Shown piece after piece: positions 11,424-31,454 of a stretch of 34,007 nt of DNA; positions within the stretch are counted from its first letter, which is position 1; each line of letters starts with the position of its first letter. The position numbers and the translations under genes are program-made. The notes under the pieces were generated by a model. The model searched no databases. It was not told the DNA's origin and saw nothing but the letters and a program-made list of their open reading frames with translations. Source of the stretch: an uncultured Clostridia bacterium (lineage in GTDB: Bacteria > Bacillota > Peptococcia > Peptococcales > Peptococcaceae); contig CALXUG010000033.1 of assembly GCA_944391625.1 (NCBI GenBank), positions 1 to 34,007 of the forward strand, written 5' to 3'.

Positions 11424-12707
11424 TTGGATAAAATTATCGTAACAGGCGGAAATACCATCCGCGGAGAAGTTACAATCAGTGGAGCGAAAAACGCTGTATT
11501 GCCTATTATTGTAGGTGCATTATTAGCAGAAGATATTACTGTATTACATGATGTGCCTAAACTGTCCGATGTAGCGACTATAAAAGAAGTGCTGGAAATT
11601 TTGGGCGCTAAGGTTACCATTGAAGACCATACAATGACAATTGATAGCCGTAATCTGAATAATTACAATGCCCCATATAATTATATTCAAAAAATGAGGG
11701 CCAGTGTATTAATTATGGGGCCGTTGCTGGCCCGATTGGGCAAAGCTAAAATTTCTATGCCTGGCGGCTGTGCGATTGGTACGCGGCCTATTGATTTGCA
11801 TTTAAAAGGATTGGAAGCATTGGGTGCCGATATTCAGATCAATCACGGTGATATGAATGCAACTGTGATTGACGGAAAACTCAAAGGCGCCAGAATTTAT
11901 CTGGATTTCCCCAGTGTGGGTGCAACCGAGCATATTATGATGGCAGCTGCAACAGCAGAAGGCACTACAATTATTGAAAATGCAGCAGAGGAACCGGAAA
12001 TTGTTGATTTAGCCAATTACCTCAACAGTATGGGCGCGATGATTCGTGGCGCAGGCACCAATGTAATCAAAGTAGAAGGCGTTGAAAAATTGCATGGTAC
12101 TAATTACACAATTATACCTGACCGCATTGAGGCCGGAAGTTATATGATTGCCGCTGCCATTACCGGGGGCGATCTGACTGTCAAAAATGTGATTGTTGAT
12201 CATATCAAACCGTTGATTGCTAAATTGGTAGAGTGCGGGATGGAAATTCATGAGGAAGGCAATAATTTGCGTATTATCGGAAAACAGCCATTAAAAGCTG
12301 TGGATATTAAAACGATGCCTTATCCTGGTTTTCCAACGGATATGCAGGCGCAGTTTATGGCTTTGATGACCGTGGCAGAAGGAACCAGCGTTTTCACAGA
12401 AACGGTGTTTGAAAACCGTTTTATGCATGCAGATGAGTTGCGGCGTATGGGCGCTAATATCAAAATTGATGGGCGCAGTGCCATTGTAGAAGGCGTTTCC
12501 AGACTAACGGGCTGCAAAGTGAAAGCTACCGATTTGCGGGCGGGAGCAGCGTTGATTATTGCTGCTCTGGCAGCAGAAGGACAGACAGAAATTACAGAAC
12601 TGCAGCATATTGACCGCGGATATGAAGATTTAATTAAAAAGTTCCAAACCATTGGTGCAGATATTGTGCGCATCAATGAAGAAGAAAAAATGGATTATCG
12701 TAACTAG
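11424..12707 (+). CDS. murA: UDP-N-acetylglucosamine 1-carboxyvinyltransferase (MurA)
   Basis: The 427-residue enzyme transfers enolpyruvate from PEP to UDP-GlcNAc, the first committed step of peptidoglycan synthesis. The PEP-binding Cys is C116 in [11 protein letters not shown], the residue that fosfomycin attacks; [10 protein letters not shown] at the N-terminus and [13 protein letters not shown] near 310 are also typical. A start at TTG 11424 is chosen because GAGGGAGG lies about 9 bases upstream and it gives the canonical [13 protein letters not shown] beginning; the ATG at 11367 would add 19 residues unlike the family. It has its own promoter and terminator. Confidence 0.95.
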
Positions 12708-15114: not shown

Positions 15115-16968
15115 ATGAACAAGCGAGTGATTGCGCTGGTACTGCTTTGTTGTTTTTTATTAACAGCTTGCGGTGGTACTGGTACAGTTGTGGAAGAGGT
15201 AATCTGGCATAACGAAACATTTAACGAAGACGCATATGATGTGATTGTAGTGGGTACTGAGCCGGAAGGGATTGCGGCTGCGGTTTCTGCTGCCCGCAAT
15301 GGGATGAAAACATTACTGTTGGGTGAAGATGAAGCACTGGGCGGTCTGATGACCATTGGAGAGTTAAATTTTATTGACATGTGCGAAAGTCGTGACAGTA
15401 CCTTGCTGACCCAAGGTTTCTTTAAAGAGTTTTATGATGCAGTGGGCGGCAGCGCCTTTGATATTACAGAGGCCCGCAATTTCTTTTTATCTGTTGTGAC
15501 TGCTGAACCGTTACTGACCTTGCGGACGCAAAATCAGTTTGTAGAACCGATTATGAACGGCAACACGATTGTTGGTGTCCGCATGGATGAAAATGGTGTG
15601 GAACGTGCTTATTATGGTTCTCGCCTGATTGATGCCACCGTTGATGCTGATGTGGCTGCGGCGGCTGGTGTGCCTTATACCTATGCCGGGGAGGATATTG
15701 GTGAGAAAGACCGGCAGATGGGTGTGACACTGGTATTTGAGTTGTCGGGTGTCAATTGGACAAAGGTTTCTCTGCATTTAAACTGGCAGCGGTTTAAAGC
15801 AGAGGTCTTAAAACAAGGCGCAGCAGATATGGGAGCGACCAAAAAAACTGCATGGGGTTATACCGAAGAAGGTTATGCATATGAGCCGCACGATTCTATG
15901 ATGCGTTTGCGCGGGTTTAATATTGCAAGACAGAATAATGGCAATGTGCTTATCAATGCGCTGATTATTTTTGGCGTAGATCCGCTTAGTGATGAAAGCA
16001 AAGCAGAAGGCATTGCACGAGCACAAGCAGAGATGGAATATTTGATTCCTTATATTCAGGAAAACTTTACTGGGTTTGAAAACGCAGAGTTGGTGGCAAC
16101 AGCAGAGCAATTGTATGTACGGGAAAGTCGGCACATAATCGGTGAATACCAGTTAACTATTGATGATGTGTTGGAGAATCGCGACCAATGGGACAAAATT
16201 GCCATTGGGGCTTATCCGGTAGATGTGCAGCCAACAGCGACACAAACCTATGGTACTGTCATCGGCAGTCCGGATCGATACGCAATTCCGTTCCGATGCT
16301 TGGTGCCTAAAATTGTAGATAATTTATTGGTTGTAGGCCGCAGCGCTTCTTATAAATCGTTGGCGGCGGGCAGTGCCCGTGTTATCCCTATTGGTATGGC
16401 AGAAGGGGAAGCAGCCGGTGTGGCTGCTGCTTACTCAGTCAATAATCAGACAGATTTCCGTACAATGAGCCAAGATAAGAATGCAATCAGCAGAGTGCAA
16501 GACACGCTAAAAAAACAGGGCGCCTATTTAGATGATTTTACAGTGCATGAGGACTTTATGGATCATTGGGCATATCCCGGTGTAAAGGTACTGCGCAGTC
16601 TGGGTATTTTGGATGGCGGTTACAGCAATGATTACAAACTGGATGAACCAATCAGCCGCTGGCGCTATCAAAACATGATCAATAATGTTTTGAAGAAAGC
16701 AGGCATTACACAGGATTATATTGAAGTGAATGATAATCCGCCAAATCGGCAGATTATTGGCACCACAGCCAGAGCCATTGCTGCTGCAGAAGGTATGAAA
16801 TACGAAAATGATTATGAGGTTTATATGAAGGCGTTGGAAGAACGCGGCATCATGACTGAGGAATTAAAAGGATATTTTTCTGACGGAGAGAAAAATCCAA
16901 ATGTAGCTGAAGTGGTGCAGCTGATGGCCAATACGTATCAATATTTACAGCAGAGTAACCAACAATAG
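15115..16968 (+). CDS. Exported FAD-dependent oxidoreductase, copy 1
   Basis: The 617-residue protein belongs to the FAD_oxidored family (PF12831 type), whose substrates are mostly unknown. Residues 1-19 are a lipoprotein signal ending in the lipobox LTAC (Cys19); there is no twin-arginine motif. The FAD-binding Rossmann start is YDVIVVGTEPEGIAAAVSAA, where the middle Gly of GxGxxG is Glu. The family block YVRESRHIIGEYQLTIDDVL and the C-terminal FAD-closing block GRSASYKSLAAGSARVIPIGMAEGEAAGVAAA are intact. From residue 484 (HWAYPGVKVLRSLGIL ... ISRWR) the sequence resembles an SLH motif, and a second weaker SLH-like unit may follow. It has a changed loop of about 10 extra residues near 222-240 relative to copies 2 and 3. 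AGGAGG precedes the ATG. Confidence 0.85.
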   Translation: MNKRVIALVLLCCFLLTACGGTGTVVEEVIWHNETFNEDAYDVIVVGTEPEGIAAAVSAARNGMKTLLLGEDEALGGLMTIGELNFIDMCESRDSTLLTQGFFKEFYDAVGGSAFDITEARNFFLSVVTAEPLLTLRTQNQFVEPIMNGNTIVGVRMDENGVERAYYGSRLIDATVDADVAAAAGVPYTYAGEDIGEKDRQMGVTLVFELSGVNWTKVSLHLNWQRFKAEVLKQGAADMGATKKTAWGYTEEGYAYEPHDSMMRLRGFNIARQNNGNVLINALIIFGVDPLSDESKAEGIARAQAEMEYLIPYIQENFTGFENAELVATAEQLYVRESRHIIGEYQLTIDDVLENRDQWDKIAIGAYPVDVQPTATQTYGTVIGSPDRYAIPFRCLVPKIVDNLLVVGRSASYKSLAAGSARVIPIGMAEGEAAGVAAAYSVNNQTDFRTMSQDKNAISRVQDTLKKQGAYLDDFTVHEDFMDHWAYPGVKVLRSLGILDGGYSNDYKLDEPISRWRYQNMINNVLKKAGITQDYIEVNDNPPNRQIIGTTARAIAAAEGMKYENDYEVYMKALEERGIMTEELKGYFSDGEKNPNVAEVVQLMANTYQYLQQSNQQ

Positions 16969-16975
16969 CAGCCAG

Positions 16976-17003
16976 GAGCCAGGTATTTTTGCCTGGCTCT
17001 TTC
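16976..17003 (+). terminator. Hairpin between flavoprotein copies 1 and 2
   Basis: GAGCCAGG (16976-16983) and CCTGGCTC (16992-16999) form a perfect 8-bp stem followed by only TTTC. It is probably a partial terminator that lowers transcript into copy 2. Confidence 0.55.
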
Positions 17004-17082
17004 AGGATACTGATCAAAAATAGGATAGGAATAAAGGGTTTATGAATTTGTTTACAAATTTTATGATACAAGGAGATTCGCA

Positions 17083-18831
17083 ATGAAACGAAGATGGATA
17101 ACAGTGCTGTTGCTTATTGTGCTGGGATTGGGGACCTGGGGCTGCAGTAATGGCGAAAAGTATGATGTAATTGTGGTCGGTGGAGATCCGGAAGGGATTT
17201 CGGCAGCGGTAACAGCTGCTCGCAATGGGATGAAAACATTATTGGTAGAGGATGACCAAGCTTTAGGCGGCTTGATGACATTGGGCGGTCTGAACTTTAT
17301 TGATATGTGCAATGGTCGGGATGGTACATTATTGACTCGGGGTACTTTTGAGGAATTTTACAATGCAGTAGGCGGTACCGCTTTTGATATTGAACTGGCC
17401 AAAGATGTGTTTATGCAGATGGTAACACAGGAAGAAAATTTGACCTTAAAGCTAAATACCCAGTTTATAGAGCCTGTGATGAAGGATAATGAAATACAGG
17501 GTGTGGTTTTACAGCAGGATGGAACGAATGTGACCTACAAGGCCAAAAGCATCATTGATGCTACGGTAGATGCAGATGTAGCCGCAGCGGCAGGCGCACA
17601 ATATACGTATCTGGGAGAAGATTACGGACAAAAAAAGGATGTTACCGGTGTAACCTTGGTATTTGAACTATCCGGTATTGATTGGCAGCAGGTTGTACAA
17701 TATTTGAACGAAGATGATAATCCAAATACCGGAGCAACGGAGAAAGCAGCTTGGGGCTATAATGAAGAAAGCTTTGCTTATGTGCCGCAGGATAAAGAGA
17801 CTCGTTTGCGGGGATTAAATATCGCCTTACAGGATGATGGCAATGTATTGGTAAACGGATTTATTATTTTTGGAGTGAATCCTTTGGACAAGGCCAGCAA
17901 AGCAGCCGGTATGGAACGGGGAAAGGCTGAATTGGAATATATTGTGCCTTATCTGCAGGAAAATTTCGTTGGATTTGCCAATGCCGAACTGGTGGGTACG
18001 GCTGAGCAGCTCTATGTGCGGGAAAGCCGCCATATTTTAGGGGAATATCAATTGACATTGGATGATGTATTGGAGAATCGTAACTTTGAGGATGTCATTG
18101 CCCTGGGTTCTTATCCGGTAGATGTGCCGCCCAATGAACGGCGTACTGTTGGGATTATTTTAGGCAATCCGGACAGATACGGTGTACCATTTCGCTGCCT
18201 TGTTCCTGTAGATATCGATGGTATGCTGGTAGTGGGCCGCAGTGCTTCTTACACTTCGTTGGCGGCAGGCAGCGCCAGAGTAATTCCGTTAGGTATGGCA
18301 GAAGGTGATGCTGCCGGTGTGGCTGCTGCTTATGGAATAAATAATAAGATGAGTTTCCGACAGATTAGTCAGGATAAGGAGGCCATTGCTTCTATTCAGC
18401 AAACGCTGAAAGAACAGGGAGCTTATTTGGAAAGCTGGCCGCCGGTACAAGAGGCAGTGGAACAGCACTGGGCTTATCCAGGTGTAAAAACGCTGCGCAG
18501 TCTGGCGTTAGTATATGGCGGATATCAAAATGATTATCGGTTGGAGGAAGCCATTACAGCGCAGGAATTAACGGAAATTGTCATGGGCCTTTGGCAGTAT
18601 CATGATGTAGAAGGTGTTATCTATTTTTCTCATACACCGTCTTGTGAAGATGTACTGAGAGAAGCGGCCAGAACAGCCGGTCTGGATATCAATACAGCCC
18701 AGCAGTCATTGATAAAAGCCAATATTTTAACAGCGCAGCTGCAGCCTTATTTTACAGATTTAACAAAAGTACCGCAGCGAGCAGAAGTTATTATGCTGCT
18801 GGCCAATGTACATCAATATTTGCAGAAATAA
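17083..18831 (+). CDS. Exported FAD-dependent oxidoreductase, copy 2
   Basis: The 582-residue paralogue shares the PF12831-type layout of its neighbours: an N-terminal hydrophobic signal (residues 5-20) with a weaker lipobox GTWGC (Cys21), the Rossmann loop YDVIVVGGDPEGISAAV with Asp replacing the middle Gly, YVRESRHILGEYQLTLDDVL, and GRSASYTSLAAGSARVIPLGMAEGDAAGVAAA. It is the most divergent of the three, for example SYPVDVPPNERRTVGIILG where copies 1 and 3 share YPxDxQPTAxQTYGTVIG. The SLH-like segment begins at about residue 462 (HWAYPGVKTLRSLALVYGGY). AAGGAG lies upstream of the ATG. It lacks a good promoter of its own and is probably read from copy 1. Confidence 0.85.
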   Translation: MKRRWITVLLLIVLGLGTWGCSNGEKYDVIVVGGDPEGISAAVTAARNGMKTLLVEDDQALGGLMTLGGLNFIDMCNGRDGTLLTRGTFEEFYNAVGGTAFDIELAKDVFMQMVTQEENLTLKLNTQFIEPVMKDNEIQGVVLQQDGTNVTYKAKSIIDATVDADVAAAAGAQYTYLGEDYGQKKDVTGVTLVFELSGIDWQQVVQYLNEDDNPNTGATEKAAWGYNEESFAYVPQDKETRLRGLNIALQDDGNVLVNGFIIFGVNPLDKASKAAGMERGKAELEYIVPYLQENFVGFANAELVGTAEQLYVRESRHILGEYQLTLDDVLENRNFEDVIALGSYPVDVPPNERRTVGIILGNPDRYGVPFRCLVPVDIDGMLVVGRSASYTSLAAGSARVIPLGMAEGDAAGVAAAYGINNKMSFRQISQDKEAIASIQQTLKEQGAYLESWPPVQEAVEQHWAYPGVKTLRSLALVYGGYQNDYRLEEAITAQELTEIVMGLWQYHDVEGVIYFSHTPSCEDVLREAARTAGLDINTAQQSLIKANILTAQLQPYFTDLTKVPQRAEVIMLLANVHQYLQK

Positions 18832-18926
18832 TGCAATCCTGAAAAGCATGGGGACTTTCTATGAGGGACAGAAATAGAACTTGTTTCGTTTGAAAGATAT
18901 GCAATTTGAATAAAAAGGAGACGACT

Positions 18927-20702
18927 ATGAAAAAACTGATTTGTATTTTATTTTGCTGCTGCCTGTTGTTGACCGGCTGCGGTAATGATACGGCTGATAC
19001 TCCAAAAGAAGCAGGTGTGGATTATGATGTGATTGTAGTAGGTGGAGATCCGGAGGGTGTTTGTGCAGCAGTATCTTCTGCCCGCAATGGTTTAAAAACA
19101 CTGTTAATTGAAGATGACGAAGCACTGGGCGGTTTGATGACATTGGGCAAATTAAACTTTATTGACATTTGCGAGAGCCGTGATGGCAGCATTCTGACCC
19201 AGGGATTATTTATGGAATTCTATAATGCAGTAGGCGGCACTGCCTTTGATGTAGAAACTGCAAAACAATTTTTTTATGATTGGGTAGCCAATGAACCCAA
19301 TGCAACCTTAAAATTGAACACTGCTTTTGTTGCACCTGTCATGGATGGTTCTCAGATTACCGGTGTGGTTGTGGAAGAAGATGGCCAACAGGTAACCTAT
19401 ACAGCCAGTCGTGTCATTGATGCCACTGTAGATGCAGATGTGGCCGCTGCTGCTGGTGCGCCCTATACCATCGCCGGTGAGGATATTGGAGAAAAAGAAC
19501 GGCATATGGGCGTGACGTTGGTTTTTGAATTGTCTGGTGTAGATTGGGATAAAGTTGTAAACTATCTGGAAAATGATGATAATGAAGGCACCGGCGCCAC
19601 TGAAAAAACAGCCTGGGGCTACACCCGAGAAGGATATGCCTATGAACCGCAGGACGAATTGATGCGGCTGCGCGGCTTTAATGTAGCCAGACAGGATAAC
19701 GGTAATGTATTGGTTAATGCGCTGATTATTTTCGGTGTAGATGCGATGAGTGAAGAAAGCAAGGAAAAGGGCATTGCCCGTGCGCAAAAAGAGTTAGAAT
19801 ACATTGTACCGTATGTACAGCAGAATTTTATAGGCTTTGAAAATGCGCAGCTGGTTGGCACTGCCAGTCAGTTGTATGTGCGGGAGAGCCGTCATATCAT
19901 TGGTGAGTACCAGCTGACCATTGATGATGTATTAGAAAATCGTGATCACTGGGACAAGATTGCCATTGTTGCCTATCCGGCTGATATTCAGCCTACCGCC
20001 GGACAAACCTATGGCACTGTCATCGGCAGTCCGGACCGTTATGCCATACCGTTTCGCTGTTTAGTGCCGTTAGAAGTAGAGAACATGCTGGTAATTGGCC
20101 GCAGTGCTTCTTATACTTCTTTAGCAGCAGGCAGTGCCCGTGTGATTCCAGTGGGCATGGCCGAAGGGGAAGCTGCTGGTGTGGCAGCTGCATATTCTCT
20201 GGAAGAACAACAAAGTTTCCGTGATATGAGTGCAGATGAAGCAGCCATTTCCAGTATACAAAAACAGCTGAAAAAACAAGGCGCTTATTTAGATGACTTT
20301 GAGGTGCATGAACCATTTATGGATCATTGGGCTTATTCCGGTGTGAAAGTAATTCGCAGTTTAGGTCTGCTGGACGGCGGCTACAGCAATGATTATCGTT
20401 TAGATGAAGCCGTTGGCAAATGGCGGCTGCAGAATATGATTAATAATGCAATGAAAAAGACTGGCAAAACAGTGCCGACGGTGGAAGTGGGCGATCCGCC
20501 AACCAATGGTGAAATGATTGCTGCCATAGCGAAAGCAGCCGGAATTAGTGCATCAGGTTATACAGAGCAATTGGAACAATTGCAGCAGCTGGGCATTATG
20601 ACCGATGAAATTATGAATCATATGGGAACTGAGCAGGAGCAGCCTTTGGCAGCAGAAGCCATTATGCTGACTGCCAATTTGTATACGTTTATAGCACAAT
20701 AA
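18927..20702 (+). CDS. Exported FAD-dependent oxidoreductase, copy 3
   Basis: The 591-residue protein is a close paralogue of copy 1. It has a lipoprotein signal with lipobox LTGC (Cys18), the Rossmann loop YDVIVVGGDPEGVCAAVSSA (Asp for Gly), YVRESRHIIGEYQLTIDDVL and GRSASYTSLAAGSARVIPVGMAEGEAAGVAAA. The SLH-like segment starts at about residue 467 (HWAYSGVKVIRSLGLLDGGY). ATG 18927 is chosen because AAAAGGAG lies 7 bases upstream; a TTG at 18906 would put that ribosome binding site inside the coding region and extend the signal peptide. A strong terminator follows, closing the three-gene cluster. Substrate and electron partner are unknown. Confidence 0.87.
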   Translation: MKKLICILFCCCLLLTGCGNDTADTPKEAGVDYDVIVVGGDPEGVCAAVSSARNGLKTLLIEDDEALGGLMTLGKLNFIDICESRDGSILTQGLFMEFYNAVGGTAFDVETAKQFFYDWVANEPNATLKLNTAFVAPVMDGSQITGVVVEEDGQQVTYTASRVIDATVDADVAAAAGAPYTIAGEDIGEKERHMGVTLVFELSGVDWDKVVNYLENDDNEGTGATEKTAWGYTREGYAYEPQDELMRLRGFNVARQDNGNVLVNALIIFGVDAMSEESKEKGIARAQKELEYIVPYVQQNFIGFENAQLVGTASQLYVRESRHIIGEYQLTIDDVLENRDHWDKIAIVAYPADIQPTAGQTYGTVIGSPDRYAIPFRCLVPLEVENMLVIGRSASYTSLAAGSARVIPVGMAEGEAAGVAAAYSLEEQQSFRDMSADEAAISSIQKQLKKQGAYLDDFEVHEPFMDHWAYSGVKVIRSLGLLDGGYSNDYRLDEAVGKWRLQNMINNAMKKTGKTVPTVEVGDPPTNGEMIAAIAKAAGISASGYTEQLEQLQQLGIMTDEIMNHMGTEQEQPLAAEAIMLTANLYTFIAQ

Positions 20703-26045: not shown

Positions 26046-27194
26046 TTAGTACCAGAGTTTTTTGTATAACTCGATGACATTTGCACGAGTAACTTTACGC
26101 GGATTATTTTTTGTGCAATTGTCAGCCAAAGCTTCATCAGCCATATGTGGAATTGCAGCAAAATAATCTTCTTTAGAAATAGTGCCAATTTGAGAAATGG
26201 ATAACGGCATATCTAATTCTTTTAACATAAATTGTACCCAGTTTGCTAAAGAACGGACAGTCATAATTTCATTATAGCTGTTTAATCCCAAGTTTCTTGC
26301 GATTGTGGAATAACGTTCTACAACCTGTGGGTATGAACGCTGACTTTTACTGTGTTCATTGATGTTAGAATTGTATTGAATGATGTGCGGCAGTAACATT
26401 GCATTTGCGCGACCATGTGGAATATGGAATGTTGCGCCTAATGCGTGCGCCATACCATGGTTTAAACCTAAACCAGCCGAATTAAATGCCAAACCTGCCA
26501 GGCAGGATGCAGAGTGCATTTTTTTTCTGGCATCCATATCATTGCCATCATAATAGGTACGTAACAAATGGGAGCCGACAATCTGAATGGCTTTTTCCGC
26601 CAATGCAGACGAAAATTCATTTTCGTTTGTGCTTACAAAAGCTTCTAATGCGTGTGTAAAAACGTCCATTCCGGTGTCCGCCGTGATATGCGGTGGTACA
26701 CTGCGAACCAATTCTGCATCTAAAATTGCTTCATCTGGAAGCAAACTAGGTGAGATTAATGGGTATTTTATATGACGTTCAGGATCTGTGATTACGGCAA
26801 AAGAAGTAACCTCGGAACCGGTTCCGCTTGTAGTAGGAATTGCAATCAAAGGAATCTTAGGATATCCTTCTGTTGTCATTGCAAATTCACGAATTGCCTT
26901 TGAAGCATCAATAGCAGAACCGCCGCCAACAGCGATTAAAACTTCTGGCTGATAATCCAGCAATGCTTTTACGCCTAAAACAATTTTTCCAATTGGTGGG
27001 TCTGGAACAACATCACTGAAAATCTTGAATTCGGTTTTTCCATTTTCTAACGGATGTACAATCATATCCAAAAGACCACTTGTTACAATAAATGGGTCGG
27101 TAACGATCAAAGCTTTTTTGCAGTGTAATTCACTTAAATGATCTAAAACATCATCGCCAAAGTATATTTTGGTTTGAATAGAGAAATTATCCAT
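26046..27194 (-). CDS. Iron-type alcohol dehydrogenase of the isethionate cluster
   Basis: The 382-residue cytosolic enzyme is a group III (iron-dependent) alcohol dehydrogenase. The NAD-binding loop GGGSAID is at residues 90-96, TTSGTGSEVT near 121-130, and the metal ligands fit D177, H181, H246 and H260 (in GMDVFTHALEA and NHGMAHALGATFHIPHG). It is third in the minus-strand cluster, 50 bases after islB, with GGAAGGA upstream. Two roles are plausible: reduction of sulfoacetaldehyde to isethionate, as SarD does in Bilophila, or reduction of the acetaldehyde made by IslA to ethanol. Sequence alone does not decide. No aminotransferase, acylating aldehyde dehydrogenase or transporter lies beside it. 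Confidence 0.9.
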   Translation of the reverse strand: MDNFSIQTKIYFGDDVLDHLSELHCKKALIVTDPFIVTSGLLDMIVHPLENGKTEFKIFSDVVPDPPIGKIVLGVKALLDYQPEVLIAVGGGSAIDASKAIREFAMTTEGYPKIPLIAIPTTSGTGSEVTSFAVITDPERHIKYPLISPSLLPDEAILDAELVRSVPPHITADTGMDVFTHALEAFVSTNENEFSSALAEKAIQIVGSHLLRTYYDGNDMDARKKMHSASCLAGLAFNSAGLGLNHGMAHALGATFHIPHGRANAMLLPHIIQYNSNINEHSKSQRSYPQVVERYSTIARNLGLNSYNEIMTVRSLANWVQFMLKELDMPLSISQIGTISKEDYFAAIPHMADEALADNCTKNNPRKVTRANVIELYKKLWY

Positions 27195-27244: not shown

Positions 27245-28129
27245 TTATTGCAAGCTAATTTCTTTCAAATGATTAAACAAATCGCCATCTAAATCTTCTG
27301 TTCCCAGAGGATAGTCACGGCCAATGAATTCATATTTTGTAGAACCGTAACGGTGATAACGTAAAACTTCATAAGTTGTATTTGGGAACTGTTTTACGAA
27401 ATCGCGGATTGCAATAATATCTTCTTCTGTATCATTAAATCCTGGGATGATTGGTGTTCTGGCGACACATGGTGTATTAGGATGGGCTTCGCGCATTTTG
27501 CGGAAAGTATCCAAAATAACTTCATTGCCTTGGCCAGTCCACTCTTTATGTTTTTCTGAATTAAGGTGTTTAATATCAAAATGGATGTAATCTAAATAAT
27601 CATAAACTTCATGGCATTTTTCCCATGGAATAGCGCCGCAAGTTTCGATAGCAGTAGTAATACCTCTTTCTTTTGCATCTTTTAACAACTCAATTGCAAA
27701 TTCTGTCTGCATGGTAGGTTCCCCGCCGCTTAAAGTTAAGCCGCCTTCGGAACGAGAGTAGAAGATAGAGTCTTCTTCAACTTTATCAATAAAATATTGG
27801 GCATTGTGATGTTCCCCATATAAACTGATTGCTTTTGCAGGACAAGCTTTTGCACATGCAAGACAATGAATACAATTTTGGTGGTTAATCCACACTTTGT
27901 TTGTATCTAGCAACGACATATTTTTTTGCGGACATACCTGAGCGCACAACATGCATACATCACCAATACATTTTTCAGGATTGTAAGCAATTTGCGGTTT
28001 GGCTAGTTGTGATTCTGGATTACAACACCATTTGCAATGTAACGGACAGCCTTTTAAAAACACAATAGTACGAATTCCCGGACCGTCATGTACGGAATAT
28101 TTTTGTACATTAAATACGCAACCTTCCAT
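27245..28129 (-). CDS. islB: Glycyl radical enzyme activating enzyme (IslB)
   Basis: The 294-residue radical SAM activase installs the glycyl radical on the partner enzyme. The radical SAM cluster is C28-x3-C32-x2-C35 in KGCPLHCKWCCNPES, with an extra Cys36 where most homologues have Ser. An inserted ferredoxin-like domain binds two more 4Fe-4S clusters (C54, C59, C62, C66 and C86, C89, C92, C96). The SAM-binding SGGEP is at 134-138. A strong AAGGAGGTG precedes the ATG. Between islA and this gene lies a GC-rich hairpin that probably lowers its expression relative to islA. Confidence 0.92.
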   Translation of the reverse strand: MEGCVFNVQKYSVHDGPGIRTIVFLKGCPLHCKWCCNPESQLAKPQIAYNPEKCIGDVCMLCAQVCPQKNMSLLDTNKVWINHQNCIHCLACAKACPAKAISLYGEHHNAQYFIDKVEEDSIFYSRSEGGLTLSGGEPTMQTEFAIELLKDAKERGITTAIETCGAIPWEKCHEVYDYLDYIHFDIKHLNSEKHKEWTGQGNEVILDTFRKMREAHPNTPCVARTPIIPGFNDTEEDIIAIRDFVKQFPNTTYEVLRYHRYGSTKYEFIGRDYPLGTEDLDGDLFNHLKEISLQ

Positions 28130-28319: not shown

Positions 28320-30824
28320 TTAGATTGTTGTCTGCTGTGTACGAGCAATCAGGTCATCCTGCAGAGCTGGGGACAGGTCGCAGAAGTATGCACTGTAACC
28401 AGCAATACGAACGATTAATCCTCTGTATCTGTCTGGATCCTGCTGAGCAGCAACTAATGTTTCTTTGTTGATTACGTTAAACTGTACATGCCACAGTTTC
28501 AGGTCGCACCATGTTCTGATGAAGGAAGCCAGTTTTTTGGTACCTTCTTCGCCAGCAACTGTACTTGGGTCGAATTTGATGTTCAACAGACGAGCTGCTC
28601 TGTCATGGAAACCTGGGTTTTTGGTATGATAGTTACTTAACAGAACTGCTGTTGGACCGTGAGTATCGCAACCATGGGATGCGGAAGAACCATCAGACAG
28701 TGGGAAGTAAGCAACACGGCCGTTAGGTGTAGCACCTACAACTTTACCAAATGGTACGTGAGATGTAAATGGTACATAACGTAAGCAGTATTCAATACCC
28801 AGAGATTTGGAATATTTATCTGTAAATTCGGAGCATACTAAGTCGCAAGCTTTACCGATTTCGTCAGCATATGGATCGTTGTTACCATATTTAGGAGCGT
28901 TCAGTAAACGCTGTCTCAATACTTCGTAACCTTCGAAGTTAGCTTTCATAGCTTCTCTGATTTCTACCAGAGTGGTAACTTTTTCGTCAAATACTAATTT
29001 TTTGATAGCAGCCAGGGAGTCAACTACAGTACCGAAGCCCATGGATTCGAAGTAACCGATATCAACGCCGCCTGGGATAAATTCTGTATGCAGATCCAGA
29101 CCTTCTTTCATGCACAGGTCATGCATAGCGGACAGCAGTGGAGCTGCAAAGTGCTTTTCACGCAGTCTGTCGATGTTTTTCTGCTGAATGAAAGCATGTC
29201 TCAACAGGTTTCTAGCCTGAGCAACGTATGCATTCCATACATCATCCCAAGTTTTGAATGTTTCAACTTCGCCTGTTTCCAGACCCAGTAATTCATCACC
29301 AGTTTTGAAAGTTCTACCGTTGTACATCATCATTTCGATTGCGGATGCAAAGTTGATGTATACACCACCGGAAGTAAAGGTGTCACGGTTCGGCATTCTG
29401 GCTTCAGCACAACCGGATACAGCATAGTCAAATGCTTCTTCAATGGTAGCACCGTTGGATACTAACTGCAGAACGATTTCTTCGTCGTTTAACAGTTTAG
29501 GGAAACCGGAACCTTCTTTAACTGTTTTAGCGCATTCTTCAATGTATCTCTGTGGAGAACGAGCATGAATACGAGCAGCTAAGTCTGGGTAGTGCAGTGG
29601 GAATTCCTGTTTGGATCTCAAGAACAGGTAGGTCAGTTCATTGGTAGCATCCTGACCCTGAGGTGTCTGACCACCAATTGTAACAGCTTCCCAGTGAGCA
29701 TAACCTTCGTTGAATGCACCGCCGGTTACGGACATGTACAGGTCGATGAACTGAGCCATAGCAACCCACATGCATTCCAATAATTCCATAGCCTGTTCGT
29801 CTGTTAATTTACCAGCTTCTTTGTCAGCTTTGTAGAATGGGTACAGATACTGGTCCATACGACCGTTGGATACGATTGTACCAGTTTTCTGTTCCAAACG
29901 GGAGAACAGCTGTGTAAACCACTGAGACTGTAAAGCTTCACGGAAGTCACGAGCTGGGTTTTCTGGTACCCAACGGCAACGAGCAGCGATATCAACCATT
30001 TCCTGTTTACGAACTGGATCAGCTTCTTTTTCAGCTTCTTTTTCATACAGGTCAGCGTAACGGTTAGCCCACAGTACGATAGCGTCGCACAGAATTACGA
30101 TTGCTTCGTAGAATGGTTTCTGGTTTACGTTGTCCAGTGGATCAAATGGATCCAGAGCAGCTAATTTAGCCTGAGCTTCTTCTTTCAGACCTTTGAAACC
30201 TCTTTTCAGAACTTTTTCATAGTCTGGAACCCACTGGTTGGAGGAACGGAAAGAAGCAGTTTCATTTACGATAAATCTGGAAGTAGATTTTTCGGATGGT
30301 TCATAAGTTACTTTTAAAGTATCTTCTGGCAGTGCATCATATAAGTCATTGAAGAATGTTTTGCCTCTGCCTGTTTTAGCGTCCCAATATGGAGCAATGT
30401 CATTCAGAATTGTGTCAACAGTTTCCTGAGTCATGTTGAATGGAGATGTAACACGAGTTGGCAACAATTTGATAGCTTCTTCGAAGATATCGCCATCCAG
30501 TTCAGGATACAGAATACCATAACGACCCTGGCAGCCGATACGACCAGCCAGTAAGTTATCTTCTTCTACATAAACTGTGATGTTTTTAGCGATGTTCATC
30601 ATAGCTTTTGCCCATCTCAGTGTCAGGTGTTCGCCTTCAGTCTGAGCCATGGATTCTGTGAAGTATTTTGCACGTTCAGCATCGATAACTGGTTTCAAGT
30701 TCTGGTTACGGTCTAAAATTTTGTAAATTCTTTCTCTGCCTTTTTTGTAGTTTGTGTCCCCAGCAGCAGCGTCCATAATGTGCTGTTCATGTGGAGAGTA
30801 ACAACATTGGATTGGTTGTGTCAT
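28320..30824 (-). CDS. islA: Isethionate sulfite-lyase, glycyl radical enzyme
   Basis: The 834-residue enzyme should cleave the C-S bond of isethionate to give acetaldehyde and sulfite. The radical glycine is G809 in [10 protein letters not shown]; the thiyl Cys472 and base Glu474 lie in [13 protein letters not shown]. The sulfonate pocket residues I remember for Bilophila IslA (R189, Q193, W374, C468, E470, R678, F682, G805) correspond here to R193, Q197, W378, C472, E474, R682, F686 and G809, a constant offset of 4. This pattern separates it from choline, glycerol and hydroxyproline lyases. No N-terminal microcompartment extension is seen and no shell genes are present, so it is likely free in the cytosol. 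One difference from Bilophila is Ala for Ile between Cys and Glu. It leads the cluster, with its own promoter. Confidence 0.9.
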
Positions 30825-30875
30825 GGTGAAAAATCATCCTTTCTTAAATGAATATAAATTTAGTGTATATTTTTT

Positions 30876-30894
30876 ATTGAGGAAGGTCCTCAAT
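30876..30894 (-). promoter_or_regulatory. Palindromic operator candidate of islA
   Basis: ATTGAGGA and TCCTCAAT are perfect 8-bp arms around a 3-base centre. The site lies about 16 bases after the islA -10 box, where a bound repressor would block elongation or initiation. As RNA it would form a short hairpin about 50 bases before the start codon. The cognate regulator is not in the window. Confidence 0.6.
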
Positions 30895-30909
30895 CCTTAA
30901 CCTGGTTTT

Positions 30910-30938
30910 ATTATAGCGAATGGGAAGCATATATACAA
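30910..30938 (-). promoter_or_regulatory. islA promoter
   Basis: On the minus strand TTGTAT (30938-30933), exactly 17 bases, and a consensus TATAAT (30915-30910) form a strong vegetative promoter about 85 bases before islA. Confidence 0.8.
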
Positions 30939-31454
30939 CACATTAGTATCTCTTATTAATTTCATGCATACTTTGATTGTTACAATAAGTTGCAAGAAGA
31001 AATTGAAGATTCAAAAGAAAATGCTTAATAGAGCCAATTTGCTCCGTTAGGCTTAAGAAATACACCTGATAAAAATTGAGCGAAGAAAAAAATTTACCAA
31101 ACCTGAAGAGTAAAAGTATGGTAGAAAATTGTCAATATCATTGAATCATTGCAATAAAAAGCTGAAACAAAATAGTTTGAGTTGGCCGAATATGGATAAC
31201 AAAAAATTAATACATAAAAAAATCACAATTTATATATAGGCTAATAATTTATAAAAATTGAGATGCATAATATGTATAATCGCGTTGCTTTAATATGCCC
31301 AAAATCAGTATGTTACCGCTGGTACTCTGTTAAATAATGTGGTAAACTATACAAAGATAGCAACTGTAAAATTTATATAAAATATTGGATATACAAAATA
31401 AAATATAAATAAAATATGCGTAAAAACGATTTTGCAAAAAGGAGAAATTTGTTT
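30939..31454. other. AT-rich intergenic region between islA and glmU
   Basis: No gene can be supported in these 516 bases. Every frame is broken by stops within about 25 codons. A weak -10-like TATACA lies about 90 bases before glmU. The region separates two divergent transcripts and is markedly more AT-rich than its neighbours. Confidence 0.55.

Follow-up and report, generated by a model that had tools for sequence, protein, structure and literature searches.

A probable LysR-type regulator shared by unlinked islA and microcompartment operons in an uncultured Peptococcaceae bacterium

What switches on the isethionate sulfite-lyase operon of an uncultured Clostridia bacterium, and through which site? 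The DNA analysed here (the window) is a whole contig of 34,007 nucleotides, C33 of the genome G000. Comparison with related genomes makes it probable, in our judgement, that a LysR-type regulator jointly activates the islA operon and an unlinked microcompartment operon through a shared dyad, and that a palindrome just downstream of the islA promoter serves as a 5' hairpin of the transcript. The features are collected in Table 1.

Table 1. Features of the islA operon, its upstream region and the candidate regulator
Feature	Position	Strand	Remarks
5' leader hairpin (the palindrome), ATTGAGGA-CCT-TCCTCAAT, predicted	30876..30894	minus	8-bp stem, 3-nt loop; stem of 7-8 bp 14-15 nt after the -10 in all 5 species
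Upstream dyad, TTGCAACTTATTGTAACAA, proposed operator	30977..30995	minus	Left arm TTGCAACTTAT invariant in 5/5 species
-35 hexamer, TTGTAT	30933..30938	minus	Invariant in 5/5 species, 17-bp spacer in all
-10 hexamer, TATAAT	30910..30915	minus	Invariant in 5/5 species although the spacer is mostly variable
26-bp block over the -35, AATAAGAGATACTAATGTGTTGTATA, proposed second (activation) site	30932..30957	minus	Longest invariant run of the alignment
Ribosome-binding region, AAGAAAGGATG	30835..30845	minus	Within invariant run 30845-30832
islA, isethionate sulfite-lyase type glycyl radical enzyme, 834 aa	28320..30824	minus	Active-site signature as in solved IslA, unlike HpsG
islB, glycyl radical activating enzyme	27245..28129	minus	TIGR02494 above cut-off; HpsH-type equivalog NF048010 427.4 of 430 bits, just below
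Iron-containing alcohol dehydrogenase, third operon gene	26046..27194	minus	PF00465, PF25137; SarD model only 199 of 700 bits
LysR-type regulator, candidate	G000:C14:10759-11658		PF00126 (HTH_1) 61.4 bits, PF03466 (LysR_substrate) 49.3 bits

The operon and its enzyme

Is the first gene of the operon really of the islA type? Its product passes the NCBIfam model NF048011 for HpsG, the (2S)-3-sulfopropanediol dehydratase, with 1435.6 bits against a cut-off of 1000. Among solved structures, two of IslA and that of HpsG come closest; we take 5ymr to be IslA and 6lon to be HpsG. The product carries T312 and F682 at positions occupied by A and I in 6lon, and reads T, A, N, F at all four sites at which 6lon reads A, E, Q, I. 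Over the substrate and catalytic residues described for IslA in excerpts of PMC8473560 (R189, Q193, T312, W374, C468, E470, R678, F682 and G805 in Bilophila wadsworthia numbering), its signature is RQTANWCERFG, as in the aligned chains of solved IslA. This signature occurs in 54 of 95 proteins and the HpsG-type RQAEQWCERIG in 16 of the 95, some loci being duplicated between collections. Since the active-site letters are of the IslA type, the name islA, given to the gene in an earlier note on this DNA, is kept despite the HpsG model. Automatic annotation may therefore give such enzymes the wrong name.

Three more glycyl radical enzymes are found in G000 (L021, L023 and L024; on C3 and C11), with 46-48% identity and other active-site letters. 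A supposed in-frame stop in L016 and L017 was dismissed, as it was located before the start codon. Elsewhere in the window, at 15115-20702, open reading frames suggest three paralogous FAD-dependent oxidoreductases in tandem, secreted or lipoprotein-like, of which the first matches PF12831.

Promoter and conserved upstream blocks

On the minus strand, TTGTAT is followed by a 17-base spacer, TATAAT, 15 bases and the palindrome (30894-30876), and islA starts at 30824. The promoter had been described as near-consensus. It is real and its -10 is perfect, but the -35 matches TTGACA at only 3 of 6 positions, and the promoter is absent from the listing of a sigma-70 scan that requires 4 of 6. The upstream region was aligned with that of four more congeneric species (L025-L028), Peptococcaceae metagenome-assembled genomes, three of the four from ruminant gut, in which islA is 93-96% identical. 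Invariant runs of at least 7 in the five species lie at 30995-30985 (left half of the dyad), 30957-30932, 30845-30832, 30827-30817 (start region) and, as a heptamer near the neighbouring gene, 31169-31163. The conserved upstream elements adjoining the promoter are thus the dyad and the -35 block. The 21-bp core of the block occurs once per genome in 5 of 8 genomes of the genus, each time at islA; and since the divergent neighbour gene of islA in L025 differs from that of the window, as read from open reading frames, the conserved block travels with islA. The islA operon is probably regulated.

Could promoter, hairpin and dyad be conserved by recent common descent and have no function? Five of the species are congeneric, which gives this idea its ground. 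However, just upstream of the dyad, in 20-base windows with starts between 31122 and 31016, the invariant fraction of columns is only 0-0.35, and the dyad geometry recurs in two other genera (see below), so that conservation of this kind is hardly credible as the explanation.

The palindrome as a probable hairpin

What, then, is the palindrome? The perfect 8-3-8 repeat that the earlier note reported after the promoter is there, 15 bases past the -10. Taken alone it is not beyond chance: the window contains 2 perfect 8-3-8 repeats, where 60 shuffles average 0.65, and when the intergenic region is shuffled 2000 times, 259 of the results include a perfect 8-bp repeat around a loop of 3-6 bases. 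With such frequencies in shuffles, the palindrome needs comparative support. The earlier note took it for a repressor operator and named lack of conservation before islA in close relatives as a refutation; the sequence is not conserved in 4 of 4 congeneric species. What stays is a repeat. In each of the five species an inverted repeat stands 14-15 bases past the -10, with a sequence peculiar to that species. Four have 8-bp stems (loops of 3, 5, 5 and 4) and one a 7-bp stem with a 5-base loop, and the total length is 19-21 nt. Only in the window and L025 is it perfect as DNA, with different sequences, and three of the four repeats other than that of the window contain G-T wobbles.

A perfect palindrome at this distance from the -10, with some repeat there in all five species, would suit an operator just past the transcription start and a repressor encoded at a distance. 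But G-T wobbles spoil a DNA palindrome and keep RNA pairing, so that the operator is unsupported, and a length varying from 19 to 21 bp is a poor fit to a rigid dimer. Nor is there a sign of the palindrome at the co-regulated promoters described below: compared with column-permuted matrices, its matrix is equalled by 1006 of 2000 in the microcompartment regions, 883 of 2000 in the regulator/exporter regions and 1045 of 2000 for the sum, and its core has a single perfect copy in the whole genome. A repressor operator at this place is therefore very unlikely.

The transcribed palindrome looks like a 5' mRNA hairpin whose pairing is kept while its sequence changes, with the limited support that five species can give. 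In the alignment, 39 of 40 cells are paired, 2 pairs are compensated on both sides, and all 4 one-sided changes give G-U. The paired fraction is 97.5% in register and at most 50% when slid by 1-3 columns. The covariation is equalled by 55 of 500 shuffles, a weak control with five close species. The five isolated hairpins have z-scores of -1.26 to -4.52, and the fold of the whole islA leader is unremarkable (z -0.73). Because 5'-proximal hairpins stabilise downstream mRNA in Bacillus subtilis, according to excerpts of PMC3997798, the hairpin is most likely a stabiliser that slows mRNA decay from the 5' end. Recognised here from its sequence, it would likewise lie within about 10 nt of the predicted 5' end. 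Might it instead be a regulated RNA element, that is, a site for a protein, a small RNA or a ligand? Its fixed place could be read so, and likewise the single-stranded stretch that precedes it, part of which is invariant (G3, T5-A7 and G9 in alignment A1). The loop, however, varies in sequence and length, Rfam gives no match to E 1 within 30700-31450, which rejects a known riboswitch or RNA family, a scan finds no terminator in the leader, and no pairing of the hairpin with the ribosome site is consistent across the five species. A regulated element is thus improbable, and we keep to the plain stabiliser.

A candidate operator and a probable distant regulator

If the palindrome is not the operator, where is it? 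The likely operator is the dyad upstream of the promoter, about 100 bases upstream of the palindrome, where its placement suits an activator. It has the form WTRCAMC-N5-GKTGYAW, with half-sites WTRCAMC and 5-base spacing. LysR boxes have a T-N11-A core; this core is missing from the islA and microcompartment 19-mers, in which the symmetric positions are mostly C and G.

The protein that might bind the dyad had to be sought elsewhere. In agreement with the earlier note, no transcription-factor gene was seen in or beside the operon, on a reading of the list of open reading frames and on Pfam scans of the alcohol dehydrogenase and the two genes behind the operon, one of which is a SpoIID gene and the other without a Pfam family. 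The closest islA outside the genus, in Gordonibacter sp. An230 (84%, L029), lies about 2 kb from a LysR-type gene. Homologues of this regulator are present in 7 of the 8 genus genomes (E <= 1e-20), with 43-46% identity in six. The regulator sits between a divergent TauE/SafE-family exporter gene and a microcompartment operon in the six genomes having it, the exporter being assigned by Pfam in five and by sequence likeness in the sixth. The protein family of the regulator is already known, and both HTH_1 and LysR_substrate are also found in the homologues of G010, G008 and Gordonibacter. The recognition-helix stretch QQSLNKSL is identical in G000 and G010 and reads QQNLNKSL in G008. The distant regulator postulated by the earlier note thus has a candidate, a LysR gene on another contig; it would not act via the palindrome, and we infer that it binds the dyad.

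The microcompartment operon of G000 encodes BMC shell proteins, EutP-type, EutN-type and cobalamin-adenosyltransferase-type proteins, an amidohydrolase, an acetylating acetaldehyde dehydrogenase (TIGR02518, 690.7 bits, cut-off 620.1), a PduS-like protein (Complex1_51K, RnfC_N, SLBB) and a PduT-like protein with a double BMC domain. PduL, the phosphotransacylase, has a profile match in L152 and is recognised by likeness in L174. No signature enzyme was recognised in the G000 operon, in which one 263-residue product has no Pfam match. An ethanolamine (EUT) microcompartment was considered and rejected: EutB has no match in G000, the E. coli control is positive, and among the 8 genus genomes only G006 has a 41-position fragment. 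The search for PduC (propanediol) was silent, as was its control. In two species, L152 (11099-15171) and L150 (2912-7018), the neighbourhood of the regulator locus contains open reading frames resembling a histidine kinase and a response regulator, together with an exporter-like gene of the YeiH type, which matches PF03601 in L152.

One dyad at two distances

Is the dyad shared between the two operons? The main matrix was made from the five islA dyads alone, and 2000 column-permuted palindromic matrices served as control. Only 2 of the 2000 did as well in the six microcompartment intergenic regions, 3 in the six regulator/exporter regions and 1 for the sum. In the 20-kb L149 the top three matches all fall within those two intergenic regions, as happens with 1 of 2000 permuted matrices. 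A matrix from the window's site alone was equalled by 2, 40 and, for the sum, 2 of 2000, and placed one of L149's three best matches in those regions. The site at the regulator gene's own promoter may be just its -35 region. Five of the six species (L149, at 11713-11731, and L150-L153, but not L154) have a further dyad-like match in the microcompartment intergenic region, which precedes the microcompartment dyad by some 190-260 bases.

A strict pattern, RCAACTNNNDGTDRCAA, occurs in G000 in exactly two places, the islA and the microcompartment promoter. Over the 8 genomes it gives 16 rows in 15 places: 5 at islA, 5 at the microcompartment operon, 3 in the amidohydrolase gene and 2 others. The reversed pattern gives 3 rows over the 8 genomes, two of them in G000, as many there as the pattern itself (one and one). 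Because the pattern was written with both sites already in view, the weight rests on the matrix test. The third match, ACAACTTACGGTTACAA, found in three genomes within the microcompartment amidohydrolase gene, was taken as a coding coincidence, and the single matches in L169 and L171 were left unused.

The spacing to the promoter is constant at each operon. The islA promoters scanned were those of five species of the genus, G010, G008 and Gordonibacter. In all seven that carry the dyad (five of the genus, G010 and G008; three genera) the distance from the dyad centre to the first base of the -35 is exactly 48 bp, with the -10 at +71 in five and +70 in two. Spacing played no part in finding the dyads of L180 and L181. 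In 6 of 6 microcompartment promoters the -35 is at +18 and the -10 at +41 from the centre. The microcompartment dyad is therefore 30 bp nearer the promoter, about three helical turns, which puts both dyad positions on nearly one face of the helix.

Other genera

Does the association hold outside the genus? Three other genera (G010, G008 and Gordonibacter) have a homologue of the regulator at a distance of 2-4 kb from islA. In G010 (L180) the order is TRAP transporter (DctP, DctQM), islA, islB, amidohydrolase, regulator, and in G008 the homologue is 4.3 kb upstream of islA, past TRAP genes. When the matrix combines islA and microcompartment sites, its top match in L180 falls upstream of islA, and its top two in L181 fall upstream of the TRAP operon and of islA; permuted matrices did as well in 10 of 2000 cases for the islA-upstream sites, 67 for TRAP and 1 for the sum. 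The islA-only matrix is weak in these genera (264, 381 and 138 of 2000, respectively). The TRAP operon of G008 is preceded by a perfect dyad with TATAAT at +40, compared with +41 at the microcompartment operons. The candidate TRAP dyad of G010 has no matching -10, and in Gordonibacter, with the regulator beside islA, there is no convincing dyad.

A regulator homologue was found at 2 of 80 islA-type loci searched, within the stretches examined. Among 150 relatives, G000 included, 8 have the regulator (E <= 1e-60) and 8 an IslA-type enzyme (G000, G001, G004, G005, G006, G008, G010 and G091), counting genomes with a homology match and then the signature, the genus being represented by L025-L028. 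Regulator and IslA-type enzyme occur together in seven genomes from three genera. G003 (82% complete) has the regulator and the microcompartment operon, and islA was not found in it; G091 has an IslA-type enzyme without this regulator; and the G009 enzyme (60%) is not IslA-type.

Might the dyad be bound by some other protein, for example a histidine kinase/response regulator pair, with the LysR protein controlling only the TauE-type exporter? Open reading frames like such a pair, recognised by eye, do lie near the regulator in G001 and G005, 2 of the 6 genomes. Against this, the pair is not seen in the stretches of G000 and G003 examined (G004 and G006 have contigs too short for a judgement), whereas the LysR gene is in all six and a homologue is near islA in three further genera. 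Another binding protein is thus unlikely, and the LysR-type regulator remains our preferred candidate.

Discussion

How would such a regulator work? LysR-type activators follow a scheme of a recognition site and an activation site. The present case shares with it the two domains and the arrangement of an upstream dyad with a second element at the -35. It differs in the position of the dyad centre, about -83 at islA and about -53 at the microcompartment operon, counted from the predicted start, in the lack of T-N11-A, and in a target operon on another contig. The regulator would bind the dyad, and probably the invariant -35 block too, and would recruit or remodel RNA polymerase to turn the islA operon on. 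It would act on the adjacent microcompartment operon through the dyad 30 bp closer to the promoter. The outcome would be coordinated production of IslA, which converts isethionate to acetaldehyde and sulfite, and of an acetaldehyde-handling organelle. The inducer may be isethionate or a metabolite of the pathway.

Is there any precedent? The microcompartment gene list of G000 resembles the IslAB cluster of B. wadsworthia without islAB. As described in excerpts of PMC8667426, that cluster likewise has an acetylating acetaldehyde dehydrogenase, a phosphotransacetylase, shell proteins, PduS/PduT-like proteins and a predicted amidohydrolase, besides IslA and its activase, and it is inducible by taurine and isethionate. 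By the same source, Bilophila has islAB and shell genes in one cluster with a regulator annotated as a PAS-domain protein, while here islA is unlinked and the candidate is of the LysR type. In Desulfovibrio alaskensis G20, knock-out of islR, a predicted regulator gene, abolished growth with isethionate, according to excerpts of PMC6386719, so control of isethionate use by a positive regulator has precedent. At the level of titles, abstract openings and term counts, and in the excerpts of PMC8667426, PMC6386719, PMC6453916 and PMC10507020, no paper was found that names a LysR-type regulator of islA.

Further along the same line, a single LysR regulator sensing a metabolite of the isethionate pathway might build an isethionate-respiring microcompartment from two operons that are not linked, by means of one dyad placed at two distances from the -35 (+48 and +18 bp) that are helically in phase; we would give this larger scheme even chances. 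A dissimilatory sulfite reductase gene, dsrA, is above the curated cut-off in G000 and three others of the 8 genus genomes, so that the freed sulfite can probably be respired. In G000 it lies at C55:6972-9169, with a second, weaker dsr-like match beside it.

What does this mean for the biology of these bacteria? Desulfonation of isethionate and taurine leads to hydrogen sulfide production in animal guts, and a concrete candidate regulator, with its candidate sites and spacing, is now available for testing. The case also illustrates that, without a comparison of relatives, one may mistake a promoter-proximal palindrome for an operator. The shared candidate operator ties a microcompartment operon in which no signature enzyme is recognised to its probable enzyme, and if the larger scheme is true, shell loci without a signature enzyme would have their function assigned by operator.
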